Source: Laspinema palackyanum D2c
GTDB taxonomy: Bacteria; Cyanobacteriota; Cyanobacteriia; Cyanobacteriales; Laspinemataceae
Direction: 5' to 3'
DNA: 64,000 bases
Assembly: GCF_025370875.1 (NCBI RefSeq)
Contig: NZ_JAMXFD010000010.1
Coordinates: forward strand, 62,001-126,000
Shown here: positions 31,644-47,522 of the stretch, piece after piece
How the letters are laid out: each line of letters starts with the position of its first letter
How positions within the stretch are numbered: position 1 is the stretch's first letter
Program-made: the position numbers and the translations under genes
Notes under the pieces: generated by a model
What the model was told of the DNA's origin: nothing
Seen by the model: only the letters and a program-made list of their open reading frames with translations
Database searches by the model: none

Positions 31644-34009
31644 GTCTCAATGGCCCTAAATCCCTTTCAGGGATTGAAACCTATTTCTATAACGCTCATC
31701 GGCAACAAAGTTTTGTCTCAATGGCCCTAAATCCCTTTCAGGGATTGAAACAAATCATGGGCTGGGAAGTTGGCGGGGGTTTCGATGGTCTCAATGGCCC
31801 TAAATCCCTTTCAGGGATTGAAACCTCATGGACTGTATGTTAACCCCGAAAACCTTGAGTCTCAATGGCCCTAAATCCCTTTCAGGGATTGAAACGTTGA
31901 ATGTCCGCTCAAGTTCCTCAATAAATTCAGTCTCAATGGCCCTAAATCCCTTTCAGGGATTGAAACAAAACATGGAAAAATTCTTAGACGCGATTAACAG
32001 CCGGGAGTCTCAATGGCCCTAAATCCCTTTCAGGGATTGAAACTTAAATTATTTCTCCTCTTTCTATCGCTTCGTTATCAGTCTCAATGGCCCTAAATCC
32101 CTTTCAGGGATTGAAACGATTAATGATTTGGGAGATACAAATGGATTTGGCATAATCCCCCGTCTCAATGGCCCTAAATCCCTTTCAGGGATTGAAACAC
32201 GCACAAATCGAAGCTCGAAACCCGCTCGGTGTAGTCTCAATGGCCCTAAATCCCTTTCAGGGATTGAAACCCTCTCTCGCATTGTTAGCCCCAGGGCTTC
32301 ATCAAGTCTCAATGGCCCTAAATCCCTTTCAGGGATTGAAACCCATGTCCTAAATCTGCGGTTTGTGCGCGAAGTAGTCTCAATGGCCCTAAATCCCTTT
32401 CAGGGATTGAAACTCGGCATATACAGCCATAAACCTGTGAGAATTGGGTCCCGTCTCAATGGCCCTAAATCCCTTTCAGGGATTGAAACATGGCGGGAGA
32501 ATGACCCAACCATGCCGCGACCTGCTGGGTCTCAATGGCCCTAAATCCCTTTCAGGGATTGAAACAAATTTCATCTTGGGGCGGCTGACGGAACTTTCTC
32601 AATTCGTCTCAATGGCCCTAAATCCCTTTCAGGGATTGAAACTTGGGTGGTGCGCTCGGAGAGGCTACAGGGCGGATGTCTCAATGGCCCTAAATCCCTT
32701 TCAGGGATTGAAACAGCTGTCTTTACCAGGATGGCGATGAACAACCCAGGTCTCAATGGCCCTAAATCCCTTTCAGGGATTGAAACAAAGGCAGGCCAAA
32801 GGCAGAACGCGGATCCGCGTAAGTCTCAATGGCCCTAAATCCCTTTCAGGGATTGAAACTGATTCGGATTGAGCGATCGCACTGGATTTACTCTCGTCTC
32901 AATGGCCCTAAATCCCTTTCAGGGATTGAAACCTGGGATTCAATCTGCCAAATAAATAAGTTTGGGGTCTCAATGGCCCTAAATCCCTTTCAGGGATTGA
33001 AACTAACCAATTGCCAGCCAGCCGGAAGGCTATCCTCGTCTCAATGGCCCTAAATCCCTTTCAGGGATTGAAACGCGGTGAATCTTCGCCTCAACAGCGA
33101 ACCCGGAAATGTCTCAATGGCCCTAAATCCCTTTCAGGGATTGAAACCGGGCTGGAGGAAGCGAGGAAGACTGTAGAGCCTTCATCCGTCTCAATGGCCC
33201 TAAATCCCTTTCAGGGATTGAAACTTTGATTGGTTCTTCTTCGGTTGGGGAATTGGTTGGTCTCAATGGCCCTAAATCCCTTTCAGGGATTGAAACGCGC
33301 CGGTGTGAATGGAGCGAATTCCACTATTTGTCTCAATGGCCCTAAATCCCTTTCAGGGATTGAAACGAGACCGTTGAACCTGTTCAGCTTCAATAGCCTG
33401 GTCTCAATGGCCCTAAATCCCTTTCAGGGATTGAAACTTTCTCCCAGTCCTCAACTTTTTTCTCTAATTCGTCTCAATGGCCCTAAATCCCTTTCAGGGA
33501 TTGAAACACTTCGGTATGCGAAGACCAAGGATGGACCATTTGTCTCAATGGCCCTAAATCCCTTTCAGGGATTGAAACCTGAAGCCTTGGCGTATCTCTC
33601 AAACCCGCAGGTCTCAATGGCCCTAAATCCCTTTCAGGGATTGAAACAGAGACATCATACACGACAGCAAAAGAGCCTAACCGAGTCTCAATGGCCCTAA
33701 ATCCCTTTCAGGGATTGAAACGAAGGATTCTTGTAGCTTGATAATGCCATTGTTGGTCTCAATGGCCCTAAATCCCTTTCAGGGATTGAAACGACCAAAA
33801 GAAGCTGTACTCCTACTTTTGGTCCCGGTCTCAATGGCCCTAAATCCCTTTCAGGGATTGAAACAGGTTTACCTGGCCAAATCCGGCTCCTCCCTTGGTC
33901 TCAATGGCCCTAAATCCCTTTCAGGGATTGAAACCTCAGATTGCTTGCAAGACTCTTTTTCTGGAATCAAGGGTCTCAATGGCCCTAAATCCCTTTCAGG
34001 GATTGAAAC
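31644..34009 (+). CRISPR. CRISPR array, 33 repeats, 32 spacers
   Basis: Thirty-three copies of a 37-bp repeat run from GTCTCAATGGCCCTAAATCC to CTTTCAGGGATTGAAAC; all look identical, including the last. Spacers are 32-44 bp (most 33-40). The repeat has an internal palindrome CCCTTTCAGGG and ends in ATTGAAAC, the 8-nt handle typical of cyanobacterial type I-D and type III systems, so transcription is left to right. No cas gene lies within 30 kb on either side in this window, so subtype cannot be set and processing must rely on Cas proteins encoded elsewhere. I saw no spacer that obviously matches another part of the window. Confidence 0.98.
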
Positions 34010-34301
34010 TGGCAAATTCCGGGGGTTAACTTTGCCTGGGGAGTATTGGAAGCCTGAACATCATCACATTGTCGGAAGTCGCGGGACCAATGCCATGATT
34101 GGGAAGTATCGGGGACAGCAGGCGCAACAACAAGTGCAAGAGATCCACAGGAACTACTATGACCAGATGAACTTTGAGATTAAGCTGGATCTGCGCGGGC
34201 AAAAGGAACTTTCCCCGGAAAATTTAGCGACCTTTGAACGGATTGTGGGCGATCGCAATCGTCCTTTTGCTTGGCCCCTCTTTGCTGAATCCACCGATTA
34301 G
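34010..34301 (+). pseudogene. Truncated reading frame directly after the CRISPR array
   Basis: Immediately after the last repeat a frame runs ~97 codons to a TAG: LPGEYWKPEHHHIVGSRG, then GQQAQQQVQEIHRNYYDQ and NRPFAWPLFAESTD at the end. It has the composition of a real protein and a His-rich HHHIVGSRG segment reminiscent of small nucleases, but no start codon or N-terminus: upstream the frame reads only into repeats and spacers. An internal ATG at about 34095 would leave ~68 residues. I take it as the 3' remainder of a gene cut by the array end. Family not recognised. Confidence 0.5.
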
Positions 34302-40813: not shown

Positions 40814-40857
40814 ATCTATCCACCTGTCAATCATTTACGCTGAAGTCGTTCCTTAAT

Positions 40858-41245
40858 TGTTCGTAGTAACGACTTCAGTCGTTCTTAACTGTTCGTAGTA
40901 ACGACTTCAGTCGTTCCTTAATTGTTCGTAGTAACGACTTCAGTCGTTCTTAACTGTTCGTAGTAACGACTTCAGTCGTTCTCTTCTCTTATGTTCAACG
41001 TCCAGACTTCAGTGGTTCCTTAGCCCTATCATCAATCACTTTAAAGGGATAAGCATTAGAATAATTGATGAAAACTCCCTCGATTATTTTTGCCGACAAG
41101 GGTTGCATTGGGTTTGGAATACTGGGTGATTGAATTACGAACATCGGGAAATAACGACTGAAGTCGTTACTACAAACGGGGAAATAACGACTGAAGTCGT
41201 TACTACAAACGGGGAAATAACGACTGAAGTCGTTACTACAAACGG
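40858..41245. repeat. Second mirror-arranged hairpin cluster
   Basis: Four copies of GTTCGTAGTAACGACTTCAG with hairpins (40858-40981) face three opposite copies (41147-41243), enclosing ~160 bp without a gene. A degraded copy (CAGACTTCAGTGGTTCC) is visible near 41005. The layout repeats that at 17337-17731. Confidence 0.9.
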
Positions 41246-41517
41246 GAAAATAGAGTGGGGTCCCTCTGAACCAAGCCATTTAAAATCCTGAAAGGGGATT
41301 GCAGAATTCTGAGAAATACTCTACACTTTCGTGAATACCACCCAAAAGGAAGGCAAAGTGACTACATAGCAGGGATTTGGGAAAGTGCAACCGCCCAAAG
41401 AAAACCGGCAAATGCACAGCAAAGCGGGCGGCGGCAGCACAGAAGTATGAGAAAATGAAAGAAGGGGAAAGGCCCGAATTTCATGTTTTTAGATGAGGTT
41501 GCCGGGAATAGGCCCCT
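41246..41517. other. Gene-free stretch, nothing firm
   Basis: Roughly 270 bp between the repeat cluster and the FtsK remnant. No frame, RNA gene or repeat family could be supported; it may be further decayed sequence of the same lost gene. Confidence 0.4.
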
Positions 41518-41815
41518 CTATCCCGACTGGGATAAGTCAATCGTTGAAGCAAATAGGCTTTGCAATCGATATAACTGGGAGCCCATTGGGTAGGGTAAAT
41601 CTCCTTTGTCGAGCAGATAAGTAGCGGATGTTTCTTGTCCGCCTAAAATAATAGGGTAGTCGGCGTCAGTAGCAGTTCTCAGGGCAACTCTTCCGGGTAA
41701 ATTTGAGAGGAAATTCGGTGTAACCCCGTTATTGTCTGGGCTTTAGGGTGGCAATAATCAGATGAATTCCGGCAGCTTTTGCCATTGCACCGAGTCGTTT
41801 AATGTTGTTTCCCAT
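41518..41815 (-). pseudogene. Frameshifted remnant of an FtsK/SpoIIIE-type DNA translocase
   Basis: On the minus strand two frames join at a frameshift near 41740. First frame: MGNNIKRLGAMAKAAGIHLI then IATLKP; second: NNGVTPNFLSNLPGRVALRT, ATDADYPIILGGQETSATYL, LDKGDLPYPMGSQLYRLQS, to TAG at 41518. This order (aGIHLIxATxxP, NGV..NFxxxLPxRVAxRxAxxxDxxxIL, ..LLxKGDxxY) is that of the ATPase C-terminal lobe of FtsK-like translocases. The Walker motifs and gamma domain are missing. It is a decayed fragment directly upstream of, and opposite to, the NOS gene. Confidence 0.75.
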
Positions 41816-41960
41816 GCTAAATGAGAGCAAAACCCAAATTAATCCCCGTCTGGCAAACCGAGGTAAGGGGAGAGATTAAAATCGAAAATGTTGGGTCTCA
41901 TTTGCAACTATCCGAGTCTCCTTACGCCTGTTCTAACTCTATAGGTAAAGATAAGTAAAG

Positions 41961-44900
41961 ATGCAAGAACTAGAAACCCTTAATAACCAGAGCATTATTC
42001 GTCTAACTGAAATTTCTGCTACTGACTTTCCGGTTAGTAATAGCTATAAGTACAAGTGTCGAGTACAGGTAATCTCTCATGAGGGAGAGACTTCCCTGGA
42101 AAAGGAGTTGTTTGTCCGAATGCAGCCCAACTGGCTAGTGGACTTAAAGAATCAAGGGGACTGCACGATCGCCATTACCCTTTGCTATCGAGAAGGAGAC
42201 ATTACTCATCCCTGGCAAGATGCAGGAACCGTTACATTTACGACAGAAGATTGTCTAAAAGGTGAACGTAATGCTGATTTGGAATTTCCCATCACCACCT
42301 GGGAACAAGCCCCGGAGTTAAAACTGAAAGCCCGTCTAACCCAAAGCAGCAGTGAAACCATTAGCAACACCATTACAGTATTTAGCAAACAAAATAGTTC
42401 TCGTCGGCGAACTCAAGGTACAGCAGAAAAAGCAGAATTTGAGCTTCCTCAACCCACAATACTGACACCGCCAGAAGAAGTCATTGTCAAAGATGTATGG
42501 AACAAATTGCGCGCTTGGAAAGAACTCCAAATGGAGAAATTTTTCAAGCGCTTACTGCTAGAAGAACCAGAATTAGAGTATTTATTTGGTGAAGCCATTG
42601 ACAGTATGAGCGACTTTTTTTATGAGTTGTTCGACTGTGCCATTCACCAACTGCAACCCGAAACTCAAATTATCCTGGCAGAACCCTTAACAGGTGTGCC
42701 ACCAGAACAGGAACATGGTTTTAAAACCGTAGCAGAATATGGAAGTTTCTTTGCTGATACGGGAATGCGTCCTCAACATTGGTTAAAGGCGCGACAGGTG
42801 TGGATGTGGATGCTACCCTCAACGGCTTATTTAGAAGAATATGACCGCGAAGATTTGAGCAAAAGTGAGAATTCTGCCCTCTACAAGTTCTTCACTACCC
42901 ATATAATTTTGCCGATGGTAGAGGCGATCCATCACTATGAAGCTGCATTACCACCGGAAACACTCAAAGAAATGGCAGCTTGCTGGGAGGTGTTTAGCCA
43001 GAACAAGCAGCAAATGGGGATGGAATTTTACCAAATTTTATTTGAGAAATATCCATTTGTATTGCCGATTTTTGGGCGGGCAGATATGGATTATCTATCC
43101 CTACATTTATTCCAAGCTTTAGAATTTCTAGTGCGCTGTCTGAAGACGGGTAGCAGTGATGAGATGTTGCAGGAACTGCGGTTTTTGGGGCAAGTTCACA
43201 GCTTTGCAGATGTGCCTAGCTGTGCCTATTCTGCGATCTCTGATACCCTATTTATCTTGTTTGACCGATATTTACCTAATTTCACCCCAGAACTACGGCA
43301 GGGGTGGCAGATATTGCTCGATCGCGTAGTGAACGTGGTTAAGATGCCTATGATCAATCAAGAACGGCTGCTGAAAAAAGCCAAACAGTTCCTAAATGTG
43401 ATTGCATCGGAACAGGCATGGGAAGCAGAAGATAAGGAAAGACGGTGGAAAGAAATTAAAGAGGAAGTCAAAGCCACCGGCACCTATACCCACAGCTATG
43501 AAGAACTGGCCTATGGAACTCAAGTAGCATGGCGCAACGCCTCAAAATGTGTAGGACGAATTGCCTGGAATAATATGGTAGTGCGCGATCGCCGCCATGT
43601 CACGGATCCCGATGAAATGTTCCGTGAGTGTCAGGAACACGTCAAATTTGCCACCAATGGGGGCAATTTGCAGATCACCATGACCGTATTTCGTCCCAAA
43701 CAGCCTAAGGAAAGATGGGGCGTGCGCTTTTGGAATTCCCAACTCTATCGCTATGCAGCTTATCAACAGCCCGATGGCAGCATTTTGGGCGATCCCGCCA
43801 ATCTGGATCTAACCAAGGCCATTATCAAATTAGGGTGGCAACCCCCACAACCCCCCACCGCTTATGACATCCTCCCTGTGGTGATTGAAGTTCCCGGTCA
43901 AGCACCAAAAATGTATCATTGGGAACCGGAAGAAGTCCTAGAAGTGCACATTGAACATCCCACAATTCCCGAATTTAAAGCCCTGGGAATGCGTTGGTAT
44001 GCCATTCCTGCTATTAGTAACTTCTCCGTTCATGTGGGCGGTATCCATTATGGCTGTATGCCCTTCAATGGCTGGTATATGGATACCGAGATTATGCGGG
44101 ATTTCCTCGATGAGTACCGCTATAACAAAATGGAGGAAATTGCCCAAGTTCTGAAATTAGATACCAGTTCTGAACAAACGTTATGGCGCGATCGCGTAGC
44201 CTTGGAACTAAACACGGCTATTCTCTACTCCTTTCAACAAGCAAAGGTGACAATGGTGGATCACCAAACCGCCTCCCGTCAATTTATGACCCATGATTTA
44301 CGGGAAAAGAAAGCGGGGCGAGAATGTCCAGCCGAATGGGCTTGGGTTGTACCCGCCACCGGGGGCAGTATATGTCCAGTATGGCATCATTCCATGCGAG
44401 ATTTTTATTTAGAACCGGCCTATCATCATGCCGCGGACCGTTGGGCAGTTGAAGATGGATTGGATCTAGAAAAACTCGCAGTGGTTGCCGATGAGGACGG
44501 AAATAAACAAGACCGGATTTTGATTCTTTATGCTTCGGAAACCGGAACAGCAGAAGGTTTTGCCCGTAAGGCCGCCCGTCAACTCAATCGCTACCGTCCC
44601 CAGGTCATGGCATTGGATGAATACAACACCAACAATCTGGCCTCAGAAAAGCTGTTATTAGTGGTTACTTCCACCTTTGGTAATGGCGAAATGCCCAGCA
44701 AAGGTAAGCGATTTTTACAATGGTTACAACAACAACCCAAGGGTTCGCTTCAAGGCTTAAATTATTCGGTGTTGGGCATTGGGAGCACGGTTTATGAACA
44801 ATTCTGCGCCGCCGCAATTTCCGTAGATAAGGCATTGGCAAAAGCCGGGGCAAACTGCATTGTACCGATTCACAAAGGGGATGAAATTAAAGGACAGGCC

Positions 44901-47138
44901 GAAACTTTTAAACAGTGGTTGGGCTTAGTTTCCCGCGTGATGGGTGAAGATGCGACCTCCGGTAATACTGCCACTTCAACCCCTAAACTTGCTGTTACCT
45001 TCCTGGAGGAAGCGATACTTCCCCTGTCTGCAAGGGAAGGCGGTATTCCTGTTCCGGTGGTTGCCAATCAAGAACTATTGCAAGAAGTGATTGCGGGTAG
45101 TCGTTCCACTCGCTTTATTGCCTTGGATTTGAGTAATACTGACCTCCAGTATGAAACAGGTGATCACGTTGCTGTGCATCCCTGCAATCCCCCCGAGTTG
45201 GTACAGCGATTGTGCGATCGCCTCAATCTTAATCCTCATGCTTACTTTACCGCTCAATACGTTACTTCTAGCGGTGAATCTTTAGAAGATCAACCCCCTA
45301 TTGCCGTTCCTAGCACAGTTCATCAAGTCTTCTCAGAAGACCTGGATCTGGGATTGCGAGCACCCTTTACGGAGTTATTAGCTTACCTGTATTCCACTGT
45401 AGAGAACCCCCAGGAAAAATATCGCCTGGAAACCTGGTTAGAAATTTTGCGCCAGGGGGATGAAAACCCCGATAGTATCGCCCTCAAAAAGAACCTCACC
45501 GATAACTTTATTAGTGTGGTGGATCTGTTGGAGGAATTTCCTTCGGCCCCCATTGAACTGGGTATCCTGTTGGAATTGTTACCCAAGCAAAAACCTCGGC
45601 TGTACTCCATTTCTTCCTGTCCCTTACTCCATCCTCGACAAATTCAAATCACCGTAGGTGTACTGCAAATTAAAACCGATGCAGGTAAAGTACGCCAGGG
45701 ACTTTGTTCTAACTATCTGGCTGGACTGCAACCGGGTTCCTCGGTGCGGATTGGTGTGATTACTTCGGCTTTCCGTCCTCCTGCTGATTCCCAATCCCCG
45801 ATCTTGATGGTAGGACCCGGAACGGGAGTTTCTCCTTTAATCGCCTTCCTTCAGCATCGAGAAGCACTGCAAAACCAAGGAGTGCCGTTAGGGGAAGCAA
45901 GTCTATATTTCGGATGCCGCAATCACAGTGATTTTATCTATCAGGAACCGTTGCAAACTTGGCAAAATCAAGGGGTTCTCACTGAATTAAATGTGGCTTT
46001 TTCTCGGTTGGGTGAGCAGAAGCAATATGTCCAAAACTTGATGGAACAGCAACCGGAAAAAATCTGGAAAATTCTCAGTCATCCCCAGTGTCATTACTAT
46101 GTTTGTGGTGATGCAAAAATGGCGGATGATGTGTTTGCGGTGATGATGAACATCGCCAAAAAACAAGGCCAACTCACCCATGCAGAAATGGTGGAATTCT
46201 TTGACCGGATGAAGCAAGAAAAACGCTTCTTTACCGATGTTTGGGGGGTGCAGTTGCACTTTAAGCAAGCCATCGAAGAGGTACAAAAAAACAACTATTC
46301 CAAAGCCGCACTCTGGCTCAATCGCATCAAAGATTCCGTAGATGCTTACAAACCCGAATCAAACCCCATCTTTTACGAAGCTCTCCAGAAGCACTTCCCA
46401 GGCGCTCTACCCATGCCCGTTTATATGCAAATCACCTATGAAACGTTGGGTGATTACGGTTTTGAAAACAAAAATACAATGGGCATGACTACCCTCTGTC
46501 GGGATGAAATCACTGAACCATTTTTGACTGAAGTAGTCCGCAAATGGGGAAACTCATTCAATTGCTCTAGCTTGGCAGGGTTTGTGATGATGGGCAAAAC
46601 GGCGGTAGCTGCTGCTACTGATCATGTGCCCATTGTGGGTGACAAGCGGCGGTTTGCCTTTTATGCCATGCCTCACATTGCCATTTCTAAAGATGGGGAA
46701 GTGGGCAAAGTCTACCGTTACGGCATCCAAAAAGTTTCTCATGCTTGTGGTGCATTGGAGGCGATCGCCAAAGAACTGTTATCCGGTAAGCTCATGTTAG
46801 AAATGGATATGCAGGATGTCGAACAAACCATCATTCGCCAAAAGATTCTTTCCAACATTCACTATGGAGACAAACCGAATTTAATTGAAATCACCAAATT
46901 GGCCTCCCAAATTATCTCTAAAGATATCCAAAGTTTGTTCAGTGTCGTCGATCCATCAATGTTTGAATATGCCGTCATGACAGGTATTCAAATTCACGGA
47001 CCGATGGATACAAACTGGATTTATCCCCTAGAGTTTTATGTGGTGGGTCAGGATATTGCGGGAGGAAAAGAAGAGATTCCGGTATTTAAGGAAATGCAAA
47101 CCCAGGAAGATGAAATGATGCTAACTTCTGTAGGTTAG
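41961..47138 (+). CDS. nos: Globin-nitric oxide synthase-LCIB carbonic anhydrase-like fusion
   Basis: 1725 residues. In order: unassigned beta-rich domain (~1-150); globin-like domain without proximal His (~175-330); globin with proximal-type His413 (~334-475); NOS oxygenase (~485-845) with WRNASKC heme Cys530, substrate Glu710 in GWYMDTE, and the pterin-site region [14 protein letters not shown] domain ([10 protein letters not shown], ~853-990); FAD/NADPH domain (RLYSISS ~1213-1219, [23 protein letters not shown]); and a C-terminal domain (~1435-1705) with LCRDE (Cys1513, Arg1514, Asp1515), PHIAI (His1572) and ACGAL (Cys1596), the zinc and catalytic set of LCIB-type carbonic anhydrases. Globin-NOS fusions are known from cyanobacteria; the C-terminal domain is the surprising part. 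No calmodulin-binding helix is seen between oxygenase and FMN domains. Four HIP1 sites inside suggest long residence. The ribosome-binding site is weak. Confidence 0.93.
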
Positions 47139-47237
47139 TAGTTGTTAGGAGCATTTGCGGCCTAGAGGATTTTTGTAAAATCCTAACCCTGGAAAGTACC
47201 CCATGTAAAAAGGGGGAAGCCAATGGAAAGGGCCCTA

Positions 47238-47383
47238 ATACGGAATCCGGTACTGATAAGTCTATAAAAACAAGCCGGGTCAAGGGGTATTTGTAGGGGC
47301 GCAATGCTTGCGCCCTCCCCCGGGCGCAAGCATTGCGCCCCTACAATCCGTTTTTATAGACCTTTAAATACCGGATTTCGTAT
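47238..47383. repeat. Nested palindromic element
   Basis: Perfect inner arms of 25 bp (TTGTAGGGGCGCAATGCTTG to CGCCC at 47291-47315; complement at 47322-47346) with a 6-nt loop, nested in weaker outer arms (ATACGGAATCCGGTA...GTCTATAAAAAC at 47238-47271; complement at 47350-47383). It lies ~100 bp after the NOS stop and could also end its transcript. Confidence 0.82.
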
Positions 47384-47425
47384 AAGAGATTTATGCAAGA
47401 GGTCGATTAAATTTAAAACCCTTAG

Positions 47426-47522
47426 AACGCCTGAAGGCGTTACTACGAACCGGGGGAAGAAACGACTGAAGTCGTTACTACGAACGGGGAAATAACGACT
47501 GAAGGCGTTACTACGAACGGGA
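47426..47522. repeat. Hairpin repeats, three copies
   Basis: Three copies in reverse orientation. Two carry the GCC/GGC-type stem (AACGCCTGAAGGCGTT at 47426; AACGACTGAAGGCGTT at 47493 has only one side changed), one the GAC/GTC stem. The half-changed copy is a useful intermediate. Confidence 0.85.

Follow-up and report, generated by a model that had tools for sequence, protein, structure and literature searches.

Does a nitric oxide synthase (NOS) of Laspinema palackyanum D2c really end in a carbonic-anhydrase-like domain and, if so, what could carbon dioxide chemistry have to do with nitric oxide? The gene lies in the 64,000-nucleotide stretch of DNA analyzed here as a whole (the window), and an earlier note made from the letters alone had claimed that a complete NOS and a C-terminal LCIB-type domain share one open frame in it. 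We examined the domain layout, the distribution and descent of the fusion, and the residues and setting from which a role of the added domain may be judged.

Architecture of the fusion protein

All 1725 codons of the gene (Table 1) form one open frame with no stop and no shift. The protein has the hallmarks of a globin-type NOS, namely the heme Cys motif RNASKCVGR of the oxygenase domain (residues 525-533), a full diflavin reductase for FMN, FAD and NADPH (FAD_binding_1 at 1030-1252, NAD_binding_1 at 1283-1391) and a C-terminal tail (CTT) of the type found in syNOS, the NOS of Synechococcus PCC 7335. The N-terminal C2, pseudoglobin and globin regions were recognized through collinearity with residues 16-1466 of syNOS chain 9q15; the Pfam Globin match at 355-459 (E 0.0012) fell slightly short of the cut-off. 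The cryo-EM structure of syNOS comprises a C2 domain (residues 1-134), a pseudoglobin, an NO-dioxygenase globin, an oxygenase domain, a flavodoxin, an FNR part and the regulatory CTT (PMC12922734). Residues 11-1454 of the fusion are collinear with residues 16-1466 of the syNOS chain (9q15/9q05, E 0), and the order C2-pGlb-Glb-Oxy-Fld-FNR-CTT is common to both (PDB 9q05, 9q06, 9q15; PMC6104048, PMC12922734). However, syNOS ends at residue 1468, whereas the window protein continues with an LCIB domain of ~250 aa.

A profile search, one of the checks proposed in the earlier note, placed LCIB_C_CA (PF18599) at residues 1482-1695 with E 4e-66 and 223 bits against a cut-off of 25. Searched alone against solved chains, the tail matched Chlamydomonas LCIC (CrLCIC, 5b5x, E 8e-36) and LCIB (CrLCIB, 5k5w, E 2e-35). 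With these matches, the Pfam hits over the NOS part and a junction that recurs in other genomes, the claim of a single frame holds: judged from its sequence, the protein is a complete C2-pGlb-Glb-Oxy-Fld-FNR-CTT NOS that carries, as a fusion, a theta/beta carbonic-anhydrase domain of the LCIB/LCIC type. It stood against both refuting outcomes set in the earlier note, a profile search without LCIB similarity and a frame joined by misassembly. The extent given earlier for the LCIB tail, 46263-47138, needs a correction at its start, since 46263-46337 (residues 1435-1459) still belongs to the NOS tail and the sequence is of the LCIB type only from about residue 1460 (nt 46338) on.

Homology to the solved LCIB and LCIC proteins points to a beta-CA-like fold of the fused domain; an AlphaFold prediction made from only two sequences, those of the window and of one related locus, reached a pLDDT of 46, too low to be used for the fold. 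The Chlamydomonas proteins (5k5w, 5b5x) resemble the fused domain in the LCIB_C_CA domain itself, the LCRDE motif, the equivalents of H162 and R194, and the Cys of ACGAL, but they are stand-alone chloroplast proteins of the CO2-concentrating mechanism with no oxidoreductase partner fused. PtLCIB4 and other active theta-CAs (5b5y) belong to the same family and have the same active-site frame, although the match is weaker (E 2e-15) and PtLCIB4 has S47 where the fused LCIB has Arg. Stand-alone cyanobacterial LCIBs of ~270-290 aa (for example L008, L011 and L041) are 55-67% identical to the fused domain and have the same residues in the active site, yet form a clade apart from the fused LCIBs.

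Table 1. Features of the NOS-LCIB gene and of its insertion site (window coordinates).
Feature	Coordinates	Strand	Basis or remark
NOS-LCIB fusion gene, 1725 aa	41961..47138	+	stop included; open frame, Pfam, same-architecture homologues L074 and L075
N-terminal C2-like domain, residues 1-134	41961..42362	+	collinear with PCC 7335 NOS chain 9q15/9q05
Pseudoglobin and globin (NO dioxygenase) region, residues ~175-460	42483..43340	+	PCC 7335 NOS alignment; Pfam Globin 355-459
NOS oxygenase domain, residues 467-828	43359..44444	+	PF02898 (NO_synthase), E 8e-153
Flavodoxin (FMN) domain, residues 855-986	44523..44918	+	PF00258, E 1e-31
FNR part, FAD and NADPH binding, residues 1030-1391	45048..46133	+	PF00667, E 6e-38; PF00175, E 3e-14
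NOS C-terminal tail (CTT), residues 1428-1459	46242..46337	+	aligned with 9q05 to its residue 1466 and with unfused NOS tails
LCIB/C-type carbonic-anhydrase domain, residues 1460-1712 (Pfam core 1482-1695)	46338..47096	+	PF18599; 5b5x, 5k5w
CRDE, C1513-R1514-D1515-E1516	46497..46508	+	probable zinc Cys and dyad Asp; R1514 as in CrLCIB/LCIC; invariant in LCIB rows
H1555, equivalent of PtLCIB4 H88 and CrLCIC H162	46623..46625	+	alignment
H1572 of PHIAI, invariant	46674..46676	+	alignment
R1586, equivalent of CrLCIC R194	46716..46718	+	alignment
C1596 of HACGAL, probable zinc Cys	46746..46748	+	invariant in alignment
Fast-evolving C-terminal end, residues 1701-1725	47061..47135	+	dN/dS
Block missing from six congeners (empty site)	41247..47425		flanks contiguous in G002-G007
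~33-bp palindromic repeat array, left of insertion	40844..41246		also at congeners' empty site
Same ~33-bp palindromic repeats, right of insertion	47426..47521		also at congeners' empty site

Recurrence and descent of the fusion

The fused LCIB starts ~3 residues past the point that matches the C-terminus of PCC 7335 NOS, is complete at its own N-terminus and is joined to the CTT almost without a linker. All fusions share the same joint, and NOS proteins from other genomes stop soon after the CTT. The LCIB extent, which starts at VDxYxPESNPIF, is common to the fusion and to a protein that joins an FHA domain to LCIB (L003). In PCC 7335 NOS, the first CTT helix keeps the flavodoxin on the FNR and the second binds the globin, the tail stabilizes the Ca2+-free locked state, and it loosens under turnover (PMC12922734). 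Given where it begins, the LCIB domain is thus attached to the very tail that serves as the lock of the NOS/NO-dioxygenase switch.

Across some 790 cyanobacterial genomes (handles up to G786) surveyed with PF18599, LCIB was mostly a stand-alone protein of ~270-290 aa, and most genomes that had it lacked a NOS. The same tail was nevertheless present on NOS homologues elsewhere, as the earlier note had suggested checking: two further intact fusions, with the same domain content, were 85% (G549, family f14, L074) and 83% (G605, f2, L075) identical to the window protein over the full length, and a decayed copy in G158 (f33), which has lost residues 1-509 and 644-963 and has a stop near 1628, was 91-95% identical over its remaining parts. 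Intact fusions thus occur in three families (f1, f14, f2) with the same junction and length. Because the junction recurs in independent genomes (G549, G605, G158), it is not an assembly error; with the strength of the match to the family model, the chance of such an error or of a fortuitous LCIB resemblance is negligible.

Between fusions, the LCIB part evolved at a dN/dS of 0.09-0.15 (dS 0.66-0.95), comparable to the reductase part, which indicates purifying selection on the domain; the last 25 residues (1701-1725), at 0.21-0.85, evolve freely. The fused LCIB moves between cyanobacterial families together with its NOS. The three intact fusions showed no shared neighborhood, and their upstream regions failed to align. 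A phage carrier was considered and found no support, as neither the phage collection nor viral contigs contained an LCIB.

Within the genus, the block absent from six congeners contains the NOS-LCIB gene and non-coding DNA only. No LCIB turned up in the remainder of the genus (0/7 genomes), and the one congener with a NOS (G007) carries it at another site. This empty site, the lack of LCIB in the rest of the genus and the position of the G007 gene point to lateral gain of the block or to repeated loss; lateral gain fits, and repeated loss is the less simple account. Several observations concern the surroundings. Short palindromic repeats GTTCGTAGTAACGACTTCAGTCGTT form the ~33-bp arrays that flank the fusion gene. 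Just downstream of it, at 47235-47386, a 37-bp inverted repeat pair surrounds a perfect 25-bp hairpin in a MITE-like arrangement. Further away, at ~32128-34301, frames built from repeats of GLNGPKSLSGIET / VSMALNPFQGLK point to a CRISPR array. The G007 NOS locus (L045) has a disturbed N-terminus with a frame break near residue 62.

In the NOS tree, the fusions and the unfused NOS of G007 formed one clade (100/100). A fusion-only clade was compatible with the data (AU p 0.30), and both loss in G007 and earlier branching fit. Since G007 lies inside this NOS clade and has no LCIB, the NOS can do without the domain. The fused domains grouped, in the LCIB tree, with L003 (FHA E 1e-14) and with L078, whose N-terminal extension had no Pfam match, again at 100/100, and a single fusion event within this LCIB subclade is the simplest reading. 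The presence of a sister LCIB fused to an FHA signaling domain suggests a regulatory use of the subclade. At L084 7412-8563 (G062), an FHA domain is joined to an LCIB domain 77% identical to the NOS-fused one.

NOS and LCIB also meet outside this subclade. In G580 (f2), the last ~84 codons are all that is left of a NOS gene (L083 8878-9129), and the remnant of about 72 residues has its stop 39 nt upstream of the start codon (ATG) of a separate intact LCIB gene in the same frame. In three f11 genomes (G050, G072, G090; L108, L109, L110), decayed fragments of NOS 3' ends lie beside stand-alone LCIB genes, on one side or on both; these fragments cover about residues 1394-1462, as though recombination had struck the NOS 3' end repeatedly. 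The LCIBs of G580 and of the f11 genomes belong to a different subclade from the fused LCIBs. With a distinct LCIB lineage beside NOS-tail remnants in four other genomes, the NOS-LCIB link arose at least twice. A single origin of all linkages was considered and rejected, as a tree that places the G580 LCIB among the fused LCIBs gave an AU p of 5e-39. In G197 (L049 / L034), a complete NOS gene is directly followed by a small piece of a NOS oxygenase gene, a further indication that NOS genes are duplicated and lost.

Active site and prospects of catalysis

Six residues, C1513, D1515, H1555, H1572, R1586 and C1596, were invariant in the alignment of 42/42 cyanobacterial LCIB rows and the reference chains; the equivalences of H1555 and R1586 were set by residue spacing, with Chlamydomonas numbering from PMC5876011. 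By alignment, they provide a Cys-His-Cys zinc set (C1513, H1555/H1572, C1596) and an Asp-Arg pair (D1515, R1586). The zinc-binding His would be H1555 or H1572, both invariant, and R1586, the counterpart of Cr R194/193, most likely supplies the Arg of the pair in place of the LCRDE Arg. The zinc and catalytic set read earlier from the motifs is accordingly retained for the Cys, the Asp and the His of PHIAI, all invariant, and amended for the Arg and for H1555, which had been overlooked. PHIAI (1571-1575) and ACGAL (1595-1599) had been placed correctly, and LCRDE occupies 1512-1516 and not 1511-1516.

R1514 falls at the position of residue 47 in the S47R mutant of PtLCIB4, and an Arg holds this position in all cyanobacterial LCIBs compared and in both Chlamydomonas proteins. 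CrLCIB and CrLCIC are reported to have no CA activity in vitro (PMC5876011, PMC9614477), and PtLCIB3/4 are described as constitutively active (PMC9614477). For CrLCIB, a CA function has since been reported from CA-knockout studies with yeast and Arabidopsis (Kasili et al. 2023, as cited by PMC13389267). Because the fused domain is of the LCRDE (LCIB/LCIC) type and not of the PtLCIB4 type, its CA activity is uncertain; with CrLCIB/LCIC reported inactive in vitro and CrLCIB reported as a CA in vivo, catalysis by the fused domain is possible but unproven. In a comparison confined to the beta class (PF00484), no canonical beta-CA matched in the window genome (G000), and the five other cyanobacterial genomes searched had 1-5 each. 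The fused LCIB may thus be the sole beta-type carbonic-anhydrase homologue of the species.

Possible roles of the LCIB domain

The role that we favor, tentatively and at somewhat below an even chance, is an inorganic-carbon input into the NOS/NO-dioxygenase switch through the LCIB domain. The CTT of PCC 7335 NOS clamps flavodoxin, FNR and globin and helps to choose between NO synthesis and NO dioxygenation to nitrate, and an LCIB attached directly to the second CTT helix should sense and affect this lock. In the NOS homodimer, one beta-CA-type domain on each CTT would be placed to dimerize as a second lock. Active sites of beta-CA-type proteins are formed at dimer interfaces, and two LCIB domains per NOS dimer would therefore fit by symmetry. 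Binding or turnover of CO2/HCO3-, or the zinc/thiol state, could then alter the CTT lock and, with it, the NO/nitrate output or NADPH use, tying nitrogen and NO chemistry to carbon status. Beyond the domain anatomy, we infer all of these mechanistic steps, and the functions put forward in the earlier note (local pH control, CO2 sensing, shielding from peroxynitrite) are likewise conjecture. The carbon-input reading draws on the identity of the domain, the recurrent junction, the selection on the LCIB part, its invariant active site, its start at the end of the CTT lock, the second NOS-linked LCIB lineage and the FHA-fused sister. The small number of fusions, four sequence-supported cases, counts against it, as do the LCIB-free NOS of G007 and the many LCIBs that stand alone in genomes with no NOS. 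Its sharpest form, in which the LCIB is an allosteric module on the CTT, gated by inorganic carbon (Ci), that decides between NO and nitrate output and makes a direct protein-level link, we regard as doubtful.

Simple tethering would require no allostery: an active CA would hydrate CO2 or dehydrate HCO3- beside the NOS and so determine the pH or CO2 in its vicinity, for instance directing peroxynitrite to nitrate via CO2. Every catalytic column is kept, CrLCIB, which also has LCRDE, is described as a CA (as cited above), and a genome without a PF00484 match may find a substitute CA useful. Nonetheless, the fused domain has the Arg of the two Chlamydomonas proteins, inactive in vitro in those accounts, at the PtLCIB4 S47 position, and a joint with almost no linker hints at a closer relation than mere tethering. 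In the cytosol of cyanobacteria, a CA that is free and active is detrimental to the CO2-concentrating mechanism, so low or gated activity is favored, which also argues against a tethered enzyme; we consider this alternative rather unlikely. A passenger domain, joined by read-through of neighboring genes and keeping its own job uncoupled from the NOS, has in its favor the immediate neighborhood of NOS and LCIB in the G580 lineage (39 nt, same frame), the frequent recombination of NOS 3' ends and the LCIB-free NOS of G007. Against it are the linker-free joint and the length conserved over three families, the selection on both parts and a NOS linkage that arose at least twice, and we find it improbable. 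Alternatively, the Cys-His-Cys site could be a zinc-thiolate sensor of NO or redox state, nitrosated or oxidized by local NO in a way that acts back on the CTT or on the activity of the LCIB domain. The two invariant Cys (C1513, C1596) would lie at the presumed zinc site beside an NO source, and CrLCIB has been reported as glutathionylated (PMC10096703); yet both Cys are equally invariant in stand-alone LCIBs without a NOS, so no NO-sensing role is needed for their conservation, and such a sensor seems quite improbable.

The earlier note knew of no report of an LCIB domain on a NOS, and we likewise found none of the NOS-LCIB architecture in the open-access literature. Both families are known, and as far as that literature shows, the architecture that combines them is new. 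A fusion that is kept by selection and recurs in several families, together with independent gene adjacency, argues that NOS and LCIB work together. The fusion bears on the unsettled physiological role of cyanobacterial NOS and on that of LCIB as a CA, barrier or regulator, and it singles out an LCIB subclade whose partners are regulatory or redox domains (NOS, FHA). It also opens the response of NO synthesis, NO dioxygenation and electron flow to CO2/HCO3- to direct measurement in a single soluble protein, and the architecture suggests that nitric oxide chemistry may be under the control of the carbon supply.
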